A stretch of 34,071 bases of DNA from a virus: positions 1 through 34,071 of the IMG/VR virus record IMGVR_UViG_3300028388_001250; one strand, written 5' to 3'. The translations under genes were made by a program, and so were the position numbers. Below the pieces are notes generated by a model that was not told the DNA's origin, searched no databases, and worked only from the letters and a program-made list of their open reading frames with translations. Shown here in pieces: positions 1,809-34,071 of the stretch (position 1 is the first letter of the stretch; each line of letters opens with the position of its first letter).

Positions 1809-1837
1809 TTGACGCCCTGTTCTGCGTGCTGTAAGGG
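1809..1837 (+). promoter_or_regulatory. int: candidate integrase promoter
   Basis: TTGACG (1809-1814), a 17-bp gap, then TAAGGG (1832-1837). The -35 is good and the -10 is weak, so a low-level or activated promoter is possible. It would give a leader of about 25 nt before the ATG at 1870. It lies back-to-back with the leftward small-RNA promoter candidate, so the two could interfere. Confidence 0.35.
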
Positions 1838-1869
1838 TGGTTGTTGCTACCCGAACAGAGGGCGTGACC

Positions 1870-2943
1870 ATGCAAGTGAAATACCTAGAAACCCGATACC
1901 GTGCTGACGGCACCCCGTACTACGCCGTGAACCCTTCCGGTACTGCCCGGAAGAAGCTGGGCGTACGCTACAAGGCCTTTGCTACGCGTGCGGAGGCCAT
2001 CGAATACGCCACTGAGGTGGCCGTACGGCTGGACGAGCATCGGCGCAAGAATACGCCGGGGTCCGCGTACGTGGACGACAGTACCGTCTCCGGCCTGCTG
2101 GAATACTTCCGGCAGACAAACGATTGGCGGCGGCTGTCCGATAACTCCAAGCGTTCGTACCTGCGCATGATGGCGATTGCGGAAAGCATGCGTATCGGCA
2201 CAGCCAACACCACCTTCGGCGAGATGCTGGTGTCGAACGTGAAGCCGGAACACGCTGACAAGTTCCACGTGGCCGTGGCTAACCGGCACAGCATGCACAC
2301 CGCGCACCACACCGTGAAGGTGCTTCGCCGGGTGTGGAACGTGGGACTGCGCCACGGGAAGGCCCGCTTCAACCCGTGGTCCCGGATGGGTCTTCAGCAG
2401 TTGCCCGACCGCGTCGTGGTGTGGACACCGCAGCAGGTGGATACCTTCATCCGTACCGCTGACGAGATGGGGTACTGGTCTCTCGGGACGATGGCCCTGA
2501 TGTGCTACCACCTCTGCCAGCGTCCCGGTGATGTCCGGAAGATGCGGTGGTCTGATCTGAAAGACGGCGTCTTCGACTTCGTACAGGAGAAGACCAAGAC
2601 CCGTGTCGAGGTACCGGCATCCCCACAACTCATGGATCGTTTGCGGGGACGCTGGCCGGAAGAGGATGGCTACATCGTCCTCTACGAGTCCACCGGTCGC
2701 CCGTACGACCGCCGCATGTACTCCAAGCTGGCGGCTCTGGTGCGTGAGCGGGCGGGTCTGCCTGATGAATTAAAGCTGTCCGACCTTCGTCGTACCGGGG
2801 CCACCGAGATGGCCGAGGCGGGCTGCACCGAGGACGAACTCCGGTCTGTGACCGGTCACCAAAGCCGGGACGTGCTGTCGATCTACGTACGCCCCACCCG
2901 AAACCTCGCCAAGAGCGGCATCATGAAAAGGTTTGTGAAATGA
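1870..2943 (+). CDS. int: tyrosine recombinase / phage integrase
   Basis: A 357-residue site-specific recombinase that would insert and excise the phage genome. The N-terminal 60 residues resemble an arm-binding domain, residues ~65-170 a SAM-like core-binding domain, and ~180-357 the catalytic domain. Catalytic residues visible are R218 (in C-Q-R-P-G-D), the lysine region E-K-T-K-T-R, R307 (in D-L-R-R-T-G), H330 (in T-G-H-Q-S) and the nucleophile Y339 (in S-I-Y-V). The usual histidine before the box-II arginine is a serine here (L-S-D-L-R). ATG 1870 is chosen over the upstream GTG 1837 because GAGGG lies 8 nt before it. Its stop overlaps the next ATG. The probable target, a tRNA-fMet 3' end, is about 2 kb downstream rather than adjacent. 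Confidence 0.92.
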   Translation: MQVKYLETRYRADGTPYYAVNPSGTARKKLGVRYKAFATRAEAIEYATEVAVRLDEHRRKNTPGSAYVDDSTVSGLLEYFRQTNDWRRLSDNSKRSYLRMMAIAESMRIGTANTTFGEMLVSNVKPEHADKFHVAVANRHSMHTAHHTVKVLRRVWNVGLRHGKARFNPWSRMGLQQLPDRVVVWTPQQVDTFIRTADEMGYWSLGTMALMCYHLCQRPGDVRKMRWSDLKDGVFDFVQEKTKTRVEVPASPQLMDRLRGRWPEEDGYIVLYESTGRPYDRRMYSKLAALVRERAGLPDELKLSDLRRTGATEMAEAGCTEDELRSVTGHQSRDVLSIYVRPTRNLAKSGIMKRFVK

Positions 2944-3191: not shown

Positions 3192-3429
3192 CCGCGTCGT
3201 CTACATCCTTGGATATTCCACTCACGACCACGAAGAGGAGATGGAGGGGTTGTACTCCTCCGCTTCCAAAGCCGTGGACGCCCTGTGGAGCCACGCGGAA
3301 GAGGTTCAGGAGACCTCGCCAAAGGAAACGAGGGTGAGGCTACTGTCCCACCTCCGTACGAGTGGCTTCGCGTCCAGCGGGACAGAGAGTGGGGTGATCT
3401 ACTACATCTGGAGGAGGCTGGTACAGTGA
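3184..3429 (+). CDS. small unknown protein
   Basis: An 81-residue protein starting at ATG 3184, with a strong GAGGGGAGA ribosome-binding site inside the end of the preceding gene. The N-terminus (D-R-V-V-Y-I-L-G-Y) looks like a beta strand, followed by a His/Glu-rich loop (H-D-H-E-E-E) and a helix with two Trp/His positions. The protein ends in a short strand (V-I-Y-Y-I-W). No family recognised. The stop overlaps the thyX GTG start, so it is part of the integrase-to-thyX translational chain. Confidence 0.6.
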   Translation: MPDRVVYILGYSTHDHEEEMEGLYSSASKAVDALWSHAEEVQETSPKETRVRLLSHLRTSGFASSGTESGVIYYIWRRLVQ

Positions 3430-4283
3430 AGATCACATACAAGTACCACTCAGGGAGCGACCTTGAAGTGGTCAACGCCGCCCGCGTGTCCTTCGACAAG
3501 GAAAGCGAGTGGGAAGAGAAACCCCTCGTTTATTACGCTGACGGGAAATACCACTCCAGAGGTTCCTACCGCCTCAAAGAGGGGGACAAGAGGCTGATCC
3601 AGTTCCTTGCCCGCGGGTGTACCAGTGGGGATTGGGAAGGTCTTCTTAATCAAATTGAGGAGAGAGGCCTGACTGCGGGGTATCACGGGGATAAGTTTGC
3701 GAGACGAGACCTAAGAGAGTTGGTGAACTGTGTGCGGCACATGCCGACCCACTGGACCCCCTTCGGTCAGGTGAACGTCGTGTGCCATATCAAGTGCCCG
3801 ATCTTCGTGGCGCGGCAGATCATGAAGCACACGGTGGGCTTCGTCTGGAACGAGGTGTCTCGGCGGTACGTTACGTATGACCCCGAGTTCTTCGAGCCTG
3901 ATGTCTGGCGACAGGCTGCTGGCAACGTGAAGCAGGGATCGAGCGACGAGCCGGTGGACAATCGAGACATTTGGGCTTCCTACGCAGATGTTGAGATTGA
4001 CCCTAGGGACATCAACCACGCCGCCTTCATCCTGTACACGAGGATGCTGGACGTGGGCGTCTGCCCCGAACAGGCCCGCATGGTCCTGCCGCAGTCCATG
4101 TACACCCAAATGCGGGTGAACGGCACCCTGTACGCGTGGGCGAACATGTATCTTCAGCGTACAGATCCGCATGCCCAGAAGGAAACACGCATGCTGGTGG
4201 AACAACTCGACCCAATCATGCACGAACACTTCCCGGTGTCGTGGGAAGCCCTGACAGGAGGACGTAGGGATGACAAAGTTTAG
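3426..4283 (+). CDS. thyX: flavin-dependent thymidylate synthase ThyX
   Basis: A 285-residue enzyme that methylates dUMP to dTMP using methylene-tetrahydrofolate, FAD and NADPH. The family signature is present at residues 130-148: R130-Q-I-M-K-H, then W-N142-E143-V-S145-R-R147-Y. The usual R-H-R triplet reads K-H-T. The N-terminal strand V-N-A-A-R-V-S-F is the typical dUMP/FAD-binding start, and P-Q-S-M-Y-T-Q-M is the usual late helix. GTG 3426 is chosen because GGAGGAGG sits about 9 nt upstream and the N-terminus then matches the family; a longer frame reaching back to 3285 adds an unrelated N-terminus. It overlaps both neighbours. Together with the reductase and MazG-like enzyme it feeds phage DNA synthesis. 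Confidence 0.93.
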   Translation: MKITYKYHSGSDLEVVNAARVSFDKESEWEEKPLVYYADGKYHSRGSYRLKEGDKRLIQFLARGCTSGDWEGLLNQIEERGLTAGYHGDKFARRDLRELVNCVRHMPTHWTPFGQVNVVCHIKCPIFVARQIMKHTVGFVWNEVSRRYVTYDPEFFEPDVWRQAAGNVKQGSSDEPVDNRDIWASYADVEIDPRDINHAAFILYTRMLDVGVCPEQARMVLPQSMYTQMRVNGTLYAWANMYLQRTDPHAQKETRMLVEQLDPIMHEHFPVSWEALTGGRRDDKV

Positions 4284-4461
4284 CGTGCTGAAAGACGACC
4301 CAAGTGTCGTTGAGGTTGTGCAGGCTGACGCCTTCACAATCAACAACAGCGGGGCGTTGATCTTCTATGACTTTGCGGTAGACCCTCGTATGGGCACCTC
4401 TACAGCGAAGCATACCTACGCCTTCGCTCCGGGCCACTGGATAGAGGTGTGGATGTCGTAA
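4270..4461 (+). CDS. small unknown protein between thyX and the nuclease
   Basis: A 63-residue protein whose ATG lies inside the end of thyX, with a GGAGG site 9 nt upstream. It is predicted mostly beta (V-V-E-V-V-Q-A-D-A-F-T-I and G-A-L-I-F-Y-D-F-A-V), with a C-terminal aromatic strand. It has no cysteines, no membrane segment and no recognised domain. The TAATG junction at 4459-4463 couples it to the nuclease gene. Confidence 0.6.
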   Translation: MTKFSVLKDDPSVVEVVQADAFTINNSGALIFYDFAVDPRMGTSTAKHTYAFAPGHWIEVWMS

Positions 4462-4805
4462 TGAAAACGAATTTCTACCTCTACAAGGCTGTGGTTGTCT
4501 CCGTTTATGACGGGGACACCATCCGTTGTGACGTGGACCTTGGCTTCAATACGTGGATACGGAACATGACCCTGCGGCTGTATGGCATCGACTCTCCTGA
4601 AATCAGGGGTGAAGAGAGGCCGCAGGGTCTGAAGGCCCGTGATTGGCTGCGGGAAGAACTGCCGGTGGGCACTGAGGTGCTGATCGAGACGATCCGGGAT
4701 CGTACGGGTAAATATGGACGCTATCTGGCCGTCGTGTGGAAGGATGGCACGGATATGAATAAAAAGATGATCCGCAAGGGGTATGCGGAACCTTACCCAA
4801 AATAA
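4461..4805 (+). CDS. staphylococcal-nuclease (thermonuclease) family protein
   Basis: A 114-residue single SNase domain, a Ca2+-dependent phosphodiesterase of the OB fold. By alignment with staphylococcal nuclease, the calcium ligands and active residues are all present: D17-G-D19-T, R39 (L-R39-L-Y-G-I-D44-S-P-E47) and R87 (K-Y-G-R87). ATG 4461 overlaps the upstream stop; GAGGTG lies 12 nt upstream. An in-frame GTG at 4449 is possible but less likely. There is no signal peptide, so it would act in the cytoplasm, perhaps in host DNA/RNA breakdown or recycling. It is the last gene before the attachment-site region. Confidence 0.85.
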   Translation: MKTNFYLYKAVVVSVYDGDTIRCDVDLGFNTWIRNMTLRLYGIDSPEIRGEERPQGLKARDWLREELPVGTEVLIETIRDRTGKYGRYLAVVWKDGTDMNKKMIRKGYAEPYPK

Positions 4806-5031
4806 CTACCCTAATTAGGTAGTCGGTGTGGTGTTTGAGAGGGTTACGTCCACGGATATCAGCACCACACAACAACAGACAGCAAAAACTAATGAAATCA
4901 GTAGTTTGGTTGCGGGGGTAGGATTTGAACCTACGACCTTCAGGTTCTGCGGTACGTGTTAACTATCAAACACTTACAGGAACCGAAAATGGGTATTCCC
5001 ATAACCATCACACAATGCTAGGGTACCTCCT
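4806..5031. other. attachment-site region (non-coding)
   Basis: A 226-bp gap in an otherwise packed operon. It contains an imperfect hairpin ACTACC/GGTAGT (4805-4823). Two nested inverted pairs follow: GTGTGGTG (4826-4833) with CACCACAC (4863-4870), and GTGTTTGA (4831-4838) with TCAAACAC (4966-4973). The tRNA-like core lies at 4907-4946, and a short dyad ATGGG-TATT-CCCAT at 4989-5002. The inverted octamers bracket the core the way integrase arm sites do. No ribosome-binding site or frame supports a gene here. Confidence 0.6.
4907..4946 (-). other. attP: probable attP core: 3' half of an initiator tRNA-fMet
   Basis: Read on the minus strand, these 40 bp give the 3' side of an anticodon stem (AACCTGAAGG), then a T-arm with stem GTAGG/CCTAC around the loop TTCAAAT. 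The acceptor strand CCCCGCA, the discriminator A and an encoded CCA follow. The A at position 72 and the CCTGAAGG sequence are marks of bacterial initiator tRNA-fMet. The match breaks off exactly in the anticodon loop (next bases CTGCGG instead of the ATGAG complement). It is therefore not a functional gene but the tRNA identity block used by integrases that insert at tRNA 3' ends. The integrase gene is about 2 kb away. Confidence 0.82.
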
Positions 5032-5808
5032 ATGTACAGCTATGGTGATCAGATAGAACTACTGAAACCGATCCGGGTAAAGGATGGGGAGACCCGTCGT
5101 ATTGACTGCCCGTTTTGTGGTGGTAGGAACACCTTCACCTTGTCGAACGTCGATGGGAAGCGGGTGTGGAACTGCTACAAGGCTTCCTGCGGCATTCGTG
5201 GGGTAGCATCCGGTGAACGTACTCTGGATGGTCTAAGGCGAAAATTGAATGGGGGTATATGCGATACGAATACACGACGTAGAGTCGAGTTACCACGGCA
5301 CACGTCAAATCCTCGCCACCATGAGGATGTGATGAGGTACCTACAGGCGGTACACTCGATTGAAGCGTTTAACGAGGGCTTGTGTACTATCAGGTTCAGC
5401 CCAGCAGATAACAGAGTGCTGTTCTACATGAATTCCGGTGAGGGTGCGATGGGTCGTGCCTTGGATAACCGGAAACCCAAGTGGAAGGCCTACGGAAACA
5501 CTTCCGGTCTGCTTACGGTTGGAGAAGGCGACCACGCGGTCGTGGTAGAAGATGCTGCTTCAGCGTGTTCCGTTGCCCGTCTCCCCAACACCACCGGGGC
5601 GGCCTTACTTGGTACGAATATGAGTGCAGAGCAGAGGCGTCAGCTTTTGGGCTTTTCTAAAATCACGATTTGCCTCGATGCTGACGCGTCTGCCAAAGCT
5701 GTGAAGTTAAAGGGGAAGCTTGAGGGCCTGACGCTAACCCGCGTCCGGTTGATAGAGCAGGACATGAAGTACATGACGGCAGAACAGATAGAGAGGGTCT
5801 TATCATGA
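5032..5808 (+). CDS. phage DNA primase (zinc finger plus TOPRIM)
   Basis: A 258-residue primase that makes RNA primers for lagging-strand synthesis. The N-terminal zinc finger of the T7 gp4 type is C26-P-F-C29 ... C48-x4-C53. The TOPRIM metal-binding residues are E173-D174 (V-V-V-E-D-A-A-S) and D216-A-D218 (I-C-L-D-A-D-A). Unlike T7 gp4 it has no helicase half; the helicase is a separate gene 300 bp downstream. ATG 5032 has no clear Shine-Dalgarno sequence and is the only sensible start, because the zinc finger begins at residue 26. The stop overlaps the next gene (ATGA). Confident call. Confidence 0.88.
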   Translation: MYSYGDQIELLKPIRVKDGETRRIDCPFCGGRNTFTLSNVDGKRVWNCYKASCGIRGVASGERTLDGLRRKLNGGICDTNTRRRVELPRHTSNPRHHEDVMRYLQAVHSIEAFNEGLCTIRFSPADNRVLFYMNSGEGAMGRALDNRKPKWKAYGNTSGLLTVGEGDHAVVVEDAASACSVARLPNTTGAALLGTNMSAEQRRQLLGFSKITICLDADASAKAVKLKGKLEGLTLTRVRLIEQDMKYMTAEQIERVLS

Positions 5809-6089: not shown

Positions 6090-6121
6090 AGGTACCCTAA
6101 CAGTTCCACGACGGGGTGACC

Positions 6122-7336
6122 ATGCTAGATGCCAGCCTTCTGAAGTCGCTTTTGACCCGCGACTTCTACGAACAATATTCGGACAAGCTGACCGACAGCC
6201 TGTTCGAAGAAGAGGTGCGTGACCTGTATAAGGTTATCGCGGAAGCCCATAACTCCTACACCCACGACCTGACTCCGCACGAACTGCTGCTTGTCTGGAA
6301 GAGCCAGAACCCGGTGGCGACTGCTGCGGAGGTTGGCGATATCGAGGCCGTGATCGACTCTGTGAGGCGTGCTGAACCGGTAGACCCGGAAGTCGCGGCG
6401 GATGTTATCGAGCAGTTCTGGCGTCGGGATATCGGTAAGCGTATCGCCAACATCGGTATCGCGATGTCGGAAGGCGATATGGATGCCCTGCAACAGCTAC
6501 AGTCTCTGCTGGACAAGCACGGAGAACACTACCTCCCAGACGACTATGGTGAACCCACCAGCGACGATATCGTCGAGTTGATCAGCGAGGTGTCCGACAC
6601 TGGCAGGTTCAAGTTCAATATCCCCTCCCTATCCCGACACGTATACGGCATCGGTCGCACCGAATTTGCCGTCTTCTTCGCAGTCCCTGAAACCGGGAAG
6701 ACGGCGTTTATCGTGTCCTTGGCCGTAGGGCCGGGAGGCTTCGTGGATCAGGGGGCCAAGGTACTTGTTCTCGGGAACGAGGAGAGTACGAAACGGACCG
6801 TTATCCGGGCGTGTTCTGCCGCCACCGGCATGACACAGGCCCAGATCGTGGAAAACCCTGAACTGGCCCGCGAGAAGTTTCGGGAAGCGAAGCAGGACCG
6901 TCTGCTGTTCAAGGACGTTCAGGATTGGGACATGGCCCGTATCGAAGGCTACATCGCCAAGGTGAAGCCGGATGTGGTCGTAATCGACCAAGCGGACAAG
7001 GTGTCCGTTGGCGGGAAGTTTAACGCGGGACACGAACGTCTCCGGTCGGTCTACCAGCAACTCCGGGAAGTGGCCAAGCGGCAGAACTGTGCCCTGATTG
7101 GCGTCTCTCAGGCGTCTAACGATGCACAGGGCAAGACCCGCGTGACCTACGACATGATGGAGGGATCGAAGATCGGAAAGGCGGCTGAAGCCGACCTGAT
7201 CATCGGTATCGGGAAACAGGACTTGGAAGAGGATAACTACGTCCGCTTCCTGACCGTCTCCAAGAACAAGCTGTCAGGTTGGCATGGGCTGGTCGTGGTT
7301 AACATCCAGCCTGAAATCAGCCGCTATATTTCGTGA
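6122..7336 (+). CDS. DnaB-like replicative helicase
   Basis: A 404-residue RecA-fold hexameric helicase. The N-terminal ~150 residues are helical, as in DnaB-type N-domains. Walker A is A-V-P-E-T-G-K193-T194 and Walker B is V-V-V-I-D289-Q-A-D. G-V-S-Q-A-S (about 327-332) is the typical DnaB/gp4 motif 3, followed by the D-M-M-E-G-S-K-I motif. The first glycine of Walker A is alanine here. ATG 6122 is preferred over GTG 6116 because GGGGTG lies just upstream of it. Primase is separate. The stop is followed within 10 bp by the next start. Confidence 0.85.
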   Translation: MLDASLLKSLLTRDFYEQYSDKLTDSLFEEEVRDLYKVIAEAHNSYTHDLTPHELLLVWKSQNPVATAAEVGDIEAVIDSVRRAEPVDPEVAADVIEQFWRRDIGKRIANIGIAMSEGDMDALQQLQSLLDKHGEHYLPDDYGEPTSDDIVELISEVSDTGRFKFNIPSLSRHVYGIGRTEFAVFFAVPETGKTAFIVSLAVGPGGFVDQGAKVLVLGNEESTKRTVIRACSAATGMTQAQIVENPELAREKFREAKQDRLLFKDVQDWDMARIEGYIAKVKPDVVVIDQADKVSVGGKFNAGHERLRSVYQQLREVAKRQNCALIGVSQASNDAQGKTRVTYDMMEGSKIGKAAEADLIIGIGKQDLEEDNYVRFLTVSKNKLSGWHGLVVVNIQPEISRYIS

Positions 7337-7885: not shown

Positions 7886-8065
7886 ATGCTGGGCGACGAC
7901 GAAATCAAAATCCTGAACGAGATGCTGGATCAGCGGGAGAAGTCCTACTACGGCGACTACACCAGCCGCCTGATCGACCTTCAGGTGCATTACCTGAAGA
8001 ACATCATCAAGATTCAGGAAGAAATACTTAACAGGATGAAAAATGACCAAGACAATAATCCTTGA
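7886..8065 (+). CDS. small coiled-coil-like protein upstream of DNA polymerase
   Basis: A 59-residue, highly charged and almost entirely helical protein. Residues 10-55 have a heptad-like spacing of Leu/Ile (L-I-D-L-Q-V-H-Y-L-K-N-I-I-K-I). ATG 7886 has GAGAGG 9 nt upstream and begins 4 nt after the previous stop. Its last 23 bp overlap the polymerase start, coupling the two. A polymerase accessory role is positional inference only. Confidence 0.6.
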   Translation: MLGDDEIKILNEMLDQREKSYYGDYTSRLIDLQVHYLKNIIKIQEEILNRMKNDQDNNP

Positions 8066-10169
8066 CCTTGAGACCACCGTGCAGCGGTTGGAGGGGAAGA
8101 TCGACAACTCTCCCTTCAATCCCAAAAATCGGTGTGTCTCGGCTCACTGGAAGATGCGGGGTGACCCGCAGGTACAGAGCCGGGTGTTCTACCACGTCGA
8201 GCAGGATACGCCGGACTCTCCCGCCGACCTGATAGCGGCCCTTGAGAGTGCCGACGTGCTGGTAGCCCACAACGCCAAGTTCGACGTGTTGTGGCTCCGC
8301 TCTATGGGCCTTCCGGTTCCTGAAAAGGTGTACTGCACCATGATCGGTGAGTACATCTTCGCTAGGGGCCAGAGGGCGGCCCTGTCTCTGCATGACTCGG
8401 CGCTGCGCAACGGCGTGGCTGCCAAGAAGTCGGACCTGATCGACGAGGCCTTCAAGAAGGAAAAGAAGGACTTCTCGGAAATCGATCTTGCCGACGTTCT
8501 GGAGTACGCCGAGGGCGACGTGGTGTCCTGCGAGGAGTTGTACGAGGTTCAGATAAAACGTCTGGCCGAGGACGTGAACGCTGGTCTGCACCCGGTGTTT
8601 GAGTTGATGAACGACATGCTGCTGTTCTTGGTCGAGATAGAGACGAATGGCGTCTGCATAGACCTTGCGGCGCTTAACGAGGTGGAGGAGGACTTCCTCC
8701 GCGAGAAGCGGGAAATCGAGAAGCGGCTGAACGAAATCGTGGAAGAGGTGATGGGCGATACGCCGATCAACCTTAATTCCGGCCCCGACCTTACGATGGT
8801 GGTATACTCCCGGCGGGTTATTGATAGGGAGAGGCACAAGGAAACCTTCAACATCGGTACGGATGCGCGGGGCAAGCCGTTGTATCCGCCCCGTATGTCT
8901 CCTTCCCAATTCACGCAAGCCGTCCGGGCGACTACGGAGGTGGTGAAGCGTACGGTCGCCGAGTGCTGTCCGGAGTGCAATGGCTCCGGATACTACTACC
9001 GCGTGAAGAATGACGGGACCAAGTACAAGAAGGCAAATAAGTGTAAGGGCTGTTCCGGTGAAGGTGTGGTGTACGTGCCCAATGGAAAGGTGGCGGGCCT
9101 GAAGCTGTCACCGGAAGGTCCGAGAGACGCGTCCATCAACGGCTTCAAGGCCGATAAGACTGTAGTGAAGCGGCTCATCGCACAGGCCGAGTCCAAGGGT
9201 AACCTGACGGCGGTGGAGTTCCTGACGAAGTTCAGCCGCCTGAATGCCGTGAACACGTACCTGACCAGCTTCGTGAACGGCATCCGGTACTGGACACGAC
9301 CGGACAGTATTCTGCACCCCAACTTCAACCAGTGTGTGACGGCTACCGGTAGGTTGTCCTCTTCCGACCCGAACTTCCAGAACCAGCCCAAGGGCGGGAA
9401 GTTCCCGGTACGGAGGGCGGTGGTATCCCGTTTTGAGGGTGGGGAAATTCTGGAGGCGGATTTCTCCGCTCTTGAATTCCGGGTAGCAGGCATCCTGTCT
9501 GGCGACCAGCAAATCCGGGATGACGTGCTGAACGGCAAAGATATTCATAGCCAGACGGCCATGATTATCAACCGCATCTCTTTGGAGGAGGTAACCAAGG
9601 ACCGTAGGCAGGCCGCGAAACCCTATTCCTTCGCTCCGCTGTACGGGGGACAGGGGGCCGAAGAACCTGATCATGTGAAGACCTACTTCCGGGAATTCTT
9701 TACGATCTACCGGGGCATGGCCCAGCAGCACCGGAAGTGGATGGATGGGGTTATGGAGGATGGGATCGTCCGTATCCCCTCCGGTCGTGAATACTACTGG
9801 CCCAACCCGACACGCTTCCGTTCTGGGCGGATCAGCAATGCTACTCAGGTGGTCAATTATCCGGTGCAGGGGTTTGCTACAGCCGACATCGTGCCTCTGG
9901 CCTGTATCCTCGCCTTGCACGCCTTCCGCCTTCGCAAGCTGAAGTCCCTGCTGATCCTTACCGTGCACGACAGCATCGTCGTGGACGTATATCCGGGGGA
10001 ACTGGAGGCCGTACGTGATGCCCTGAAGTGGGCCATGCTGGACGGGCTGTACGCGGCGATGGAGGCCCGGTGGAACTTCGTGTCGGACATCCCCCTCGCC
10101 ATCGAAATTCAGGCGGGTCAAAACTGGATGAATATGGAAGATGTCCCGTTGACTTGTTACCCCAGCTAG
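8043..10169 (+). CDS. family A DNA polymerase with inserted DnaJ-type zinc finger
   Basis: A 708-residue replicative polymerase. The 3'-5' proofreading domain has D8-L-E10, H76-N-A-K-F-D81 and Y155-A-E-G-D159. The polymerase domain has motif A D473-F-S-A-L-E-F-R, motif B R-R-Q-A-A-K-P-Y-S-F-A-P-L-Y-G and motif C V-H-D643-S (usually V-H-D-E). Between exonuclease and palm, residues 309-341 carry C309-x2-C312-N-G-S-G, 21 residues, then C334-x2-C337-S-G-E-G. That is a DnaJ-type zinc centre not found in T7 or E. coli Pol I. From memory, HMO-2011-type phages have this arrangement. The residue corresponding to E. coli F762 is Phe. There is no 5'-3' exonuclease domain. The stop is 13 bp upstream of the nearest downstream start of any reading, and a promoter overlaps the gene's end. 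Confidence 0.93.
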   Translation: MTKTIILDLETTVQRLEGKIDNSPFNPKNRCVSAHWKMRGDPQVQSRVFYHVEQDTPDSPADLIAALESADVLVAHNAKFDVLWLRSMGLPVPEKVYCTMIGEYIFARGQRAALSLHDSALRNGVAAKKSDLIDEAFKKEKKDFSEIDLADVLEYAEGDVVSCEELYEVQIKRLAEDVNAGLHPVFELMNDMLLFLVEIETNGVCIDLAALNEVEEDFLREKREIEKRLNEIVEEVMGDTPINLNSGPDLTMVVYSRRVIDRERHKETFNIGTDARGKPLYPPRMSPSQFTQAVRATTEVVKRTVAECCPECNGSGYYYRVKNDGTKYKKANKCKGCSGEGVVYVPNGKVAGLKLSPEGPRDASINGFKADKTVVKRLIAQAESKGNLTAVEFLTKFSRLNAVNTYLTSFVNGIRYWTRPDSILHPNFNQCVTATGRLSSSDPNFQNQPKGGKFPVRRAVVSRFEGGEILEADFSALEFRVAGILSGDQQIRDDVLNGKDIHSQTAMIINRISLEEVTKDRRQAAKPYSFAPLYGGQGAEEPDHVKTYFREFFTIYRGMAQQHRKWMDGVMEDGIVRIPSGREYYWPNPTRFRSGRISNATQVVNYPVQGFATADIVPLACILALHAFRLRKLKSLLILTVHDSIVVDVYPGELEAVRDALKWAMLDGLYAAMEARWNFVSDIPLAIEIQAGQNWMNMEDVPLTCYPS

Positions 10170-31509: not shown

Positions 31510-34071
31510 TTAGAAGTCGTAGAACCGACGCTTATACGGATATGGAGCAAACCCACTGTCTGTCTTTGAGTTTGGATCAGAGGATATGTCGTTATCGGTA
31601 TCCGTGTACGGGGTTGTGGAGATGGTGCCGGAAGTCTCAGACAGGGGGTTTCCGGAAATAACACCGGTAGTTTCTGAGAACGGGGAACCGGAGATGACCC
31701 CTATGGTATCCTGATACGGGTGACCGCCCAGCAGGGAGAAGTACGTGAGTTCACCTGCACCAACCGCCTGAAGTGCAGGCAGGTCCACCGCCCCCTGTGC
31801 CTGACGGGACATGAAGCCCGCACCAGAGGCCTGTAGTCCCGGAAGTACGACAACACCGACTGCGGTCCGTGCACTCTCCCCCTGACCAAAGGCCTCAATG
31901 GTCGGGAGGGTAATGTCGCCAATACCGGTTTTGACGACTGCGGCGCTACCGGAAGCACTGATACTCGGAAGCGTAAGTGCACCAGAGCCGATCTTGCGGA
32001 TGAACGCACGACCACTGGCCGAGAAGGACGGCAGGGTAATGTCACCCGTGCCCCATCCACTACGCTTACCAGAGCCGCTGGCCGACAGGCTGGGGAGAGT
32101 AATGTCCCCGACGCCCGCCTTAACAAGGGCTGCCGAGGCCGAGGCGCTAATCGGGGGAAGGGTGATGTCCCCGACACCACGTATCCGACTTTCCCCGGTA
32201 GCGGTGATGGAGGGCAGGGTAATCTGACCCTGTCCTATTCTGTTAATTATACCACTTCCACTGGTGGTAATCAACGGGAGTACAACCGTACCGACACCCG
32301 TAACAACCACTTCACCCACAGAGGATACAGTCAGGCTGGGTAGGGTGATGTCCCCGGAAGCAGTAACGATCCGGTCGCCGGAGCCTGACACAGTAATGGC
32401 GGGCAGGAAAAGACCCCCATCACCCGCTTTCACCACCTCCGCAGTACCAGAAACCGTCAGAGCCGGAAGAGTGATATCACCCTGACCATCTCTCCCGACA
32501 GCACCTGCACCGGAAACCGTCAGGGCCGGGAGGCTAAGGCTGCCTGTACCCGTCTTCGTGATCGTCCCGGAGGCAGTGGCGGTAATCGCCGGGAGATTGA
32601 TGTCTCCTGCGCCAGTTTTTACTATCTCGCCACTACCGGATACGGTAACCCCCGGAAGGGTGATGTTACCGCTACCGGTCTTAACGATGTCACCGGTGGC
32701 AGATGCTGTGAGTGCTGGGAGGGTGGCGTCACCGGTGCCCGTCTTGGTGAGGCTGGAGGAACCACCCGACACAATAGCCGGTAGGGTAGCGTCCCCAGTA
32801 CCGGTGCGTGACAGGTAGCCGGAGGCAGATGCCGTGAGGGAGGGGAGAGTAACGTCACCGGTACCGGTCTTGATGATGCTGCCGGAACCAGAAGCCGTGA
32901 AGTACGGCAGTACGATTGCACCCAACGCACCGAAGGTTACCTGTACGGAACCTTCACCGGACGCGGTAATCGACGGGAGAGTAATATCACCGCTACCGGT
33001 TTTACTGATGTCTCCACTACCGGAGGCCGTGAGTGCGGGAAGGTCGATGCTACCGCTACCGGTTTTTACAACGTCCCCGGAACCCGACACCGTGAGTGAC
33101 GGAAGAGTGGCGTCCCCAGTACCAGTACGGGTAACCGTGGTATCAGCGGTAAGGGTGATGGCGGGCAGGGTGATGTCCCCGGCCCCAAAGCGGCTCAGAT
33201 AGCCCTCTCCAGCCGCCGTAAGGGCTGGTAGGGTGATAGACCCCTCGCCAGACAGTACAGCCGCCGCAGTGCCGCTCCCAGAGGCTGTGAGGGCCGGTAG
33301 GCTGATATCCCCACTACCACTCTTGACTAGAGCAGCAGAACCACCCGACACGATAGCCGGGAGGGTGATATCACCGCTACCGGTCTTCGTAATCTCGCCC
33401 GATCCGGAGACGGTAAGGCTGGGAAGGGTAATCTCCCCAGAGCCGGTTTTGGTGATATCCCCACTACCTGTAGCGGTAAGGGCAGGGAGGGTAACGTCCC
33501 CGGTAGCGGTCTTTACGATGTCCCCACTACCCGAGACGGTCAGGGAAGGGAGAGTAATATCACCGCTACCGGTCTTCGTAATCTCTCCGCTACCCGATGC
33601 GGTAAGACCGGGTAAGGCAAGATCACCGGCACCGGTTTTAATAAGTACGGCACTGCCACCAAACACCAGTGCAGGGAGCGTAGCATCTCCCGTACCCTCA
33701 CGGGAAATCTTGCCGCTTCCACTTGCCGTGATGGATGGCAGGGTAGCTGCGCCATCCCCGGTGATGGTTGCAACTACGTTACCCTCGCCCGACGCCGTCA
33801 GGGCGGGGAGGGTGATGTCTCCGCTACCGGTGTTTCCACCAGCTTCCTCCACCCGCATCTGCGCCCAAGTGACGAGGGCGTAGTTGGTGGGTGTCCCACC
33901 TGTGGGCTGGAACTCGACCGCGAGGCCCACGTTCTCCGCTGGCGACGTGGACGTGCCCCCGACCGTGTAGGACGTGGAGGCGGTGACATTGGGTGTCGTG
34001 TAGACCGCAACAACAAGGTCGTTGTACTCGGCAGAGGATGGTGCCCCTGTGTCGAGGTCGTAGTGTTCGGT
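31510..34071 (-). CDS. large repeat protein, probable surface/fibre component (partial)
   Basis: At least 853 residues; the reading frame stays open to the right edge, so the N-terminus is missing. The in-window start-like GTG at 33930 is probably internal. The first ~80 visible residues (Y-D-L-D-T-G-A-P-S, T-S-Y-T-V-G-G-T) look like a beta-sandwich. Then 33 tandem units of ~21 residues follow, with consensus G-(S/T)-G-D-I-T-L-P-A-L-T-A-S-G-S-G-x-(I/V)-x-K-T. The last 72 residues are exactly six 12-residue units beginning G-G-H-P-Y-Q-D-T and ending R-R-F-Y-D-F. No cysteines appear in the repeats. The pattern suggests a long beta-solenoid or fibrous stalk on the virion. It lies just upstream of the adaptor gene, where capsid-associated proteins are usual; decoration protein or adhesin are both possible. 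Confidence 0.75.
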   Translation of the reverse strand, partial: TEHYDLDTGAPSSAEYNDLVVAVYTTPNVTASTSYTVGGTSTSPAENVGLAVEFQPTGGTPTNYALVTWAQMRVEEAGGNTGSGDITLPALTASGEGNVVATITGDGAATLPSITASGSGKISREGTGDATLPALVFGGSAVLIKTGAGDLALPGLTASGSGEITKTGSGDITLPSLTVSGSGDIVKTATGDVTLPALTATGSGDITKTGSGEITLPSLTVSGSGEITKTGSGDITLPAIVSGGSAALVKSGSGDISLPALTASGSGTAAAVLSGEGSITLPALTAAGEGYLSRFGAGDITLPAITLTADTTVTRTGTGDATLPSLTVSGSGDVVKTGSGSIDLPALTASGSGDISKTGSGDITLPSITASGEGSVQVTFGALGAIVLPYFTASGSGSIIKTGTGDVTLPSLTASASGYLSRTGTGDATLPAIVSGGSSSLTKTGTGDATLPALTASATGDIVKTGSGNITLPGVTVSGSGEIVKTGAGDINLPAITATASGTITKTGTGSLSLPALTVSGAGAVGRDGQGDITLPALTVSGTAEVVKAGDGGLFLPAITVSGSGDRIVTASGDITLPSLTVSSVGEVVVTGVGTVVLPLITTSGSGIINRIGQGQITLPSITATGESRIRGVGDITLPPISASASAALVKAGVGDITLPSLSASGSGKRSGWGTGDITLPSFSASGRAFIRKIGSGALTLPSISASGSAAVVKTGIGDITLPTIEAFGQGESARTAVGVVVLPGLQASGAGFMSRQAQGAVDLPALQAVGAGELTYFSLLGGHPYQDTIGVISGSPFSETTGVISGNPLSETSGTISTTPYTDTDNDISSDPNSKTDSGFAPYPYKRRFYDF
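31513..31728 (-). repeat. six in-frame 36-bp (12-residue) repeats
   Basis: The C-terminal 72 codons divide without remainder into six 12-residue units sharing S-G-x-P-x-(S/T)-(E/D)-T-x-x-x-I. The first begins G-G-H-P-Y and the last ends F-Y-D-F at the stop codon. They form a second repeat family, distinct from the 21-residue family upstream. Confidence 0.8.
31745..33828 (-). repeat. 33 in-frame ~63-bp (21-residue) repeats
   Basis: Degenerate tandem repeats coding G-x-G-D-I-T-L-P-x-(L/I)-T-x-S-G-S-G. Units 3, 8 and 17 belong to a recognisable variant (V-x-G-G-S-x-x-L-x-K). Conservation is strongest at the L-P pair and the flanking glycines. DNA identity between some units is high enough for slippage or recombination to change their number. 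Confidence 0.85.

Follow-up and report, generated by a model that had tools for sequence, protein, structure and literature searches.

The window analysed here, the whole of a 34-kb virus record, carries in order an integrase gene (int), a thymidylate synthase gene (thyX), a staphylococcal-nuclease-like (SNase-like) gene, a block matching part of a tRNA, and genes for primase, helicase and PolA (Table 1). The int–primase–helicase–PolA order, together with a partial DnaJ sequence within PolA, placed the contig among the HMO-2011-type phages (subgroup III-like); the DnaJ CXXCXGXG insert in PolA is a feature reported for that group (PMC6918029). The integrase reading frame is intact and lies 2 kb from the block, with residues R229, K252, R318, H341 and Y350 invariant across 24 aligned relatives. 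Phage genes stand on both sides of the block, which marks it as an attP and not as an attL, an attR or a prophage end. The genes scanned included no recognisable repressor or excisionase gene, and a promoter scan of positions 4700–5200 gave no sigma-70-type site. At the other end of the window, positions 31510–33930 (minus strand) hold a long, repeat-rich reading frame in which GDITLPALTASGSG-like units recur dozens of times; its product is perhaps a tail-associated repeat protein.

Table 1. Genes and sequence features around the putative attachment site (window coordinates)
Feature	Position	Strand	Basis or remarks
Tyrosine integrase	1837..2943	+	PF00589, E=1.9e-13; PHROG integrase
ThyX thymidylate synthase frame, between int and attP	3285..4283	+	PF02511
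Staphylococcal-nuclease-like protein, adjoins attP	4449..4805	+	PF00565
IHF-consensus site, CCA side	4896..4908	+	AATCAGTAGTTTG (consensus WATCARNNNNTTR); A-tract at 4884-4888 before it; TTG enters tRNA end
Putative attP core region, tRNA-fMet 3' half (A37 to CCA)	4907..4946	-	Identity to host tRNA-Met(CAT) genes
IHF-consensus site, anticodon side	4964..4976	+	TATCAAACACTTA, perfect WATCAANNNNTTR; includes earlier-noted octamer TCAAACAC
Motif conserved downstream of attP in relatives; arm-site or regulatory candidate	4998..5005	+	CCCATAAC
DNA primase, first gene on the anticodon side of attP	5032..5808	+	PHROG 47
DnaB-type helicase	6116..7336	+	
Family A DNA polymerase with DnaJ CXXCXGXG insert	8043..10169	+	

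The block reads TGGTTGCGGGGGTAGGATTTGAACCTACGACCTTCAGGTT in the window; its minus strand, AACCTGAAGGTCGTAGGTTCAAATCCTACCCCCGCAACCA, comprises the 3' strand of the anticodon stem, the variable loop, the T-arm and the acceptor strand with A72, A73 and CCA. It is identical (40/40, through CCA) to the last 40 bases of alphaproteobacterial tRNA-fMet. The exact 40-mer was found in at least 119 stretches of bacterial and archaeal genomes, with Alphaproteobacteria titles predominating among the matches listed. Complete copies form the 3' end of 77-nt tRNA-Met(CAT) genes that start CGCGGGGTGGAGC, end CCCCGCAACCA and have the C1/A72 mismatch, a mark of initiator tRNAs. An exact 40-bp match of this kind to tRNA-fMet is, we conclude, not a chance resemblance. 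Identity between block and host stops in the anticodon loop (CGCAGAA in the phage vs CTCATAA in the host), and no complete tRNA was found within the window. The sequence-only reading had described the block as a copy of the 3' half of tRNA-fMet that ends in the anticodon loop, and the exact 40-bp identity bears this out.

Its further proposal, that the block is an attP on the initiator tRNA, is likewise supported: the block is identical to the host tRNA, a tyrosine integrase gene lies nearby, and phage CRP-3 provides a precedent (PMC6918029). The evidence thus supports a putative attP built on the initiator tRNA 3' half of an alphaproteobacterial host. We consider it very probable that the phage is a temperate HMO-2011-type podovirus whose integrase recombines attP (4896–4976) with the 3' part of tRNA-fMet. 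In such a reaction the 5' half of the host initiator gene and the 3' half from the phage would together make a complete tRNA-fMet, the customary means by which temperate phages enter a tRNA gene and leave it intact. The restored tRNA would then lie beside the nuclease/thyX/int end of the integrated genome and the displaced host 3' half beside the primase/replication-gene end. We infer a crossover 3' of the anticodon, inside the block, because an exchange 5' of the anticodon would give a CAG anticodon. In relatives, identity always extends through the 3' strand of the anticodon stem but the loop is variable, which makes the loop itself an unlikely place of exchange. Mapping from relatives did not separate the T-loop from the stem as the place of crossover; both the anticodon stem and the T-loop are common exchange subsites among tRNA islands (PMC4383910).

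The block and the synteny of the window recur at the same locus in CRP-3, CRP-212 and CRP-235. We compared 70 IMG/VR loci with related integrases (42–76% identity), nearly all of which carry the block with one to four differences, mostly 1.4–2 kb after int. Changes in the T-stem of the relatives' blocks were paired (GTAGG/CCTAC, GCAGG/CCTGC and GTGGG/CCCAC). After further scans, a tRNA 3' half was present in 139 loci with enough flank, most commonly that of tRNA-fMet. A second target group among these loci has the acceptor CGCCGGAG or CGTCGGAG, which we read as tRNA-Asn(GTT) 3' halves. A small third group (CGGGCCTA) matches genes that ARAGORN calls tRNA-Met(CAT), distinct from tRNA-fMet; its tRNA may be elongator Met or Ile2. 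The integrase tree required seven changes of target class against a minimum of four, which points to repeated target switching. On balance we favour a picture in which attP is a cassette, with two IHF sites 68 bp apart forming a fixed frame around an exchangeable tRNA 3' half. Integrases would have switched several times among tRNA-fMet, the other CAT-anticodon tRNA and tRNA-Asn, with the frame, and mostly also the place before primase, remaining constant. In three loci of one integrase clade (L008, L010 and L013) the tRNA half precedes int by ∼1.2 kb and has the opposite orientation, indicating that the attP–int module has been rearranged there.

The core is flanked by two IHF-consensus sites (Table 1). 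Relatives have motifs at fixed spacing on both sides, and both fit WATCARNNNNTTR: the CCA-side motif is ATCA-N5-TTGG and the anticodon-side motif TATCAAT-N2-GTTA. Only four strict IHF matches occur in the whole window, and two of them are the attP flank sites. Across 54 dereplicated attPs the strict matches numbered 47, where 3.3 were expected and no more than eight arose in any of 100 shuffles; 45 of the 47 fell at the two expected places, four of these being reversed, on the CCA side. When up to one mismatch was allowed, a site was found on the CCA side of 42/54 attPs and on the anticodon side of 48/54, compared with 0/216 control offsets. The IHF-like positions are kept where the target is the other CAT-anticodon tRNA or tRNA-Asn, and this persistence across differing tRNA targets suggests that the sites are part of the integration machinery and not of the tRNA. 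Consensus sites at conserved positions flanking the core are the layout of a predicted IHF-assisted attP. By analogy with the role of IHF for lambda Int, the predicted sites probably bend attP into a synaptic complex. A literature search returned no paper naming both HMO-2011 and integration host factor; the consensus string WATCAANNNNTTR itself occurs in PMC7581858.

Inverted octamers had earlier been proposed to bracket the block as arm sites. All four octamers are present (4826–4833, 4863–4870, 4831–4838 and 4966–4973), and the intergenic region (4806–5031) has no inverted octamer pairs besides these two. The bracketing does not hold for GTGTGGTG (4826) and CACCACAC (4863), both of which lie to the left of the block. 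Markov-shuffled versions of the intergenic region contained at least two inverted 8-mer pairs in 13.6% of cases, and the octamers were missing at corresponding positions in 24 dereplicated relatives; CACCACAC alone recurs among them (L011 and L050, at other offsets). Given this probability (P = 0.14 for two or more pairs), the pair that fails to bracket and the lack of conservation, we rejected the octamers as arm sites; the conserved flanks instead fit the IHF consensus. A repeat search for integrase arm-type sites between the two flanks gave nothing beyond chance in the window and p ≤ 0.1 in 11/54 attPs. Some relatives carry direct repeats of TAGTGTCAC at about −78 and +100. Direct repeats of TAGTGTCA(C) lie at about −80 and +100 around attP in L005, L015, L020 and L216, and are candidate integrase arm sites or operators.

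We also considered whether the CCA-side motif is conserved as a terminator for the restored tRNA. A strong terminator-like hairpin with a T-run was found in only about 13% of relatives, the window's own hairpin and T-run after CCA are weak (−2.1 kcal/mol), and the IHF consensus fits better, so this candidate was rejected. Strong terminator-like hairpins do follow the tRNA CCA directly, in the tRNA sense, in L011, L048 and L050, where they would end the restored tRNA transcript.

Searching genome contigs by integrase yielded no prophage, attL or attR of the window-type integrase family. The viral contigs gave none either, and not one of them carried an intact tRNA. A further search of 395 Shimia-family genomes was likewise negative, but it had no positive control and is therefore weak evidence of absence. 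The host prophage junction foreseen by the sequence-only reading was not recovered in these searches. Lysogeny may be rare, hosts may be undersampled, or some members may no longer integrate. Separately, genome contigs, mostly alphaproteobacterial, held tRNA-fMet 3' halves that start from the anticodon loop (CTCATAACC...) and stand without a normal 5' half (L080, L083, L086, L109, L112, L116, L125, L136, L138 and L149); another such orphan half (L143) has a bit more of the 5' side. These look like 3' halves displaced by other elements integrated at tRNA-fMet, which suggests that the tRNA-fMet gene is a common target.

The block constrains the host weakly. Among the matches listed for the 40-mer, record titles name Rhodobacteraceae, Pelagibacteraceae, SAR116, Rhodospirillales, Novosphingobium and Mesorhizobium. 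The exact 40-mer was present in 36/198 sampled genomes of the Shimia family and its TCCCGCA variant in 54/198. Assigning a host from the block was rejected because the 40-mer is common to many Alphaproteobacteria, and the earlier suggestion that the T-stem would narrow the host proved of little use, the same 40-mer being shared across several alphaproteobacterial groups.

Other explanations of the locus were weighed against integration at tRNA-fMet with IHF. The flank elements might be integrase arm-type or excisionase sites: their distance from the core is constant whatever the target class, as that of arm sites would be, and their assignment to IHF rests on sequence. We regard this as unlikely, since the elements fit the IHF consensus WATCAANNNNTTR and its four unconstrained central bases do vary. 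The IHF site H' of lambda has an upstream A-tract, and the CCA-side element resembles it in this respect.

The function of the block itself could also be read differently. It might be the relic of an ancestral integration at tRNA-fMet in a phage that is now effectively lytic and leaves the tRNA half unused, as the lack of prophages of the integrase family in the sampled genomes and the difference from the host at two of the seven anticodon-loop bases would allow. A decayed site is hard to reconcile with a block that is exact over 40 bp, an integrase frame that is intact with its catalytic residues, IHF-like sites that hold a fixed spacing in widely diverged relatives, and a relative, CRP-3, that integrates; we consider a relic very improbable. 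More improbable still is that the block is a tRNA fragment acquired for some other role, such as a tRNA decoy or a regulatory small RNA, and not an attachment site. Minus-strand transcription is possible, and the weak hairpin and T-run after CCA could be taken in its favour. Against it, the corresponding locus of relatives holds other tRNA 3' halves between the same flank sites, few relatives have strong terminator-like hairpins, and CRP-3 integrates at the corresponding site. An attP at the initiator tRNA therefore remains our preferred reading.

The closest precedent is CRP-3, a subgroup III member of the HMO-2011-type phages (PMC6918029, PMC9038755). A 2019 mSystems paper on RCA phages reported its integration into tRNA-Met(CAT) of host FZCC0040, on the basis of infected-cell sequencing (hybrid reads) and junction PCR, with a core that overlaps the 3' end of the tRNA-Met(CAT) gene (PMC6918029). 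A 2022 study of the HMO-2011-type group cites CRP-3 as the proven case (PMC9038755). The CRP-3 integrase is homologous to that of the window (49% identity), and the two phages share the int–thyX–attP–primase–helicase–PolA order, the tRNA-fMet 3' half in place and the IHF-like spacing. They differ in the block, where CRP-3 has the acceptor TCCCGCA (CCCCGCA in the window) and ceases to match fMet at loop position 38, and in the SNase-like gene that adjoins attP in the window. Roseobacter phages CRP-212 and CRP-235 have the block at the same locus; unlike for CRP-3, no integration is reported for them in the available part of PMC9038755. The window attP is thus a further putative case of a tyrosine-integrase attP that restores its target tRNA; the central reading was already known for HMO-2011-type phages, and to present targeting of the initiator tRNA as a notable novelty, as the sequence-only reading did, was an overstatement in light of CRP-3. 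The main additions are the IHF-site frame and the target switching. The attP marks an uncultured marine phage as putatively temperate and yields a testable integration junction, and its frame, two IHF-like sites around an exchangeable tRNA half, could serve the study of how integrases change target.

Roseobacter phage CRP-738 and related contigs illustrate such a change: the integrase is distantly related (34% identity) and the attP layout with IHF-like sites is shared, whereas the CRP-738 attP has a 3' half that, judged from its sequence, resembles tRNA-Asn(GTT) in place of tRNA-fMet. The attP of lambda-type tyrosine integrases similarly has IHF-consensus sites flanking its core; in the window, the core is a tRNA 3' half and the IHF sites are sequence-based predictions. 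Phages with tRNA-dependent lysogeny (PMC10865867) also use a tyrosine integrase at an essential host tRNA, but their identity with the host spans only ∼10 bp and they bring along an entire tRNA gene, whereas the 40 bp of the block would rebuild the gene and the window contains no tRNA gene.
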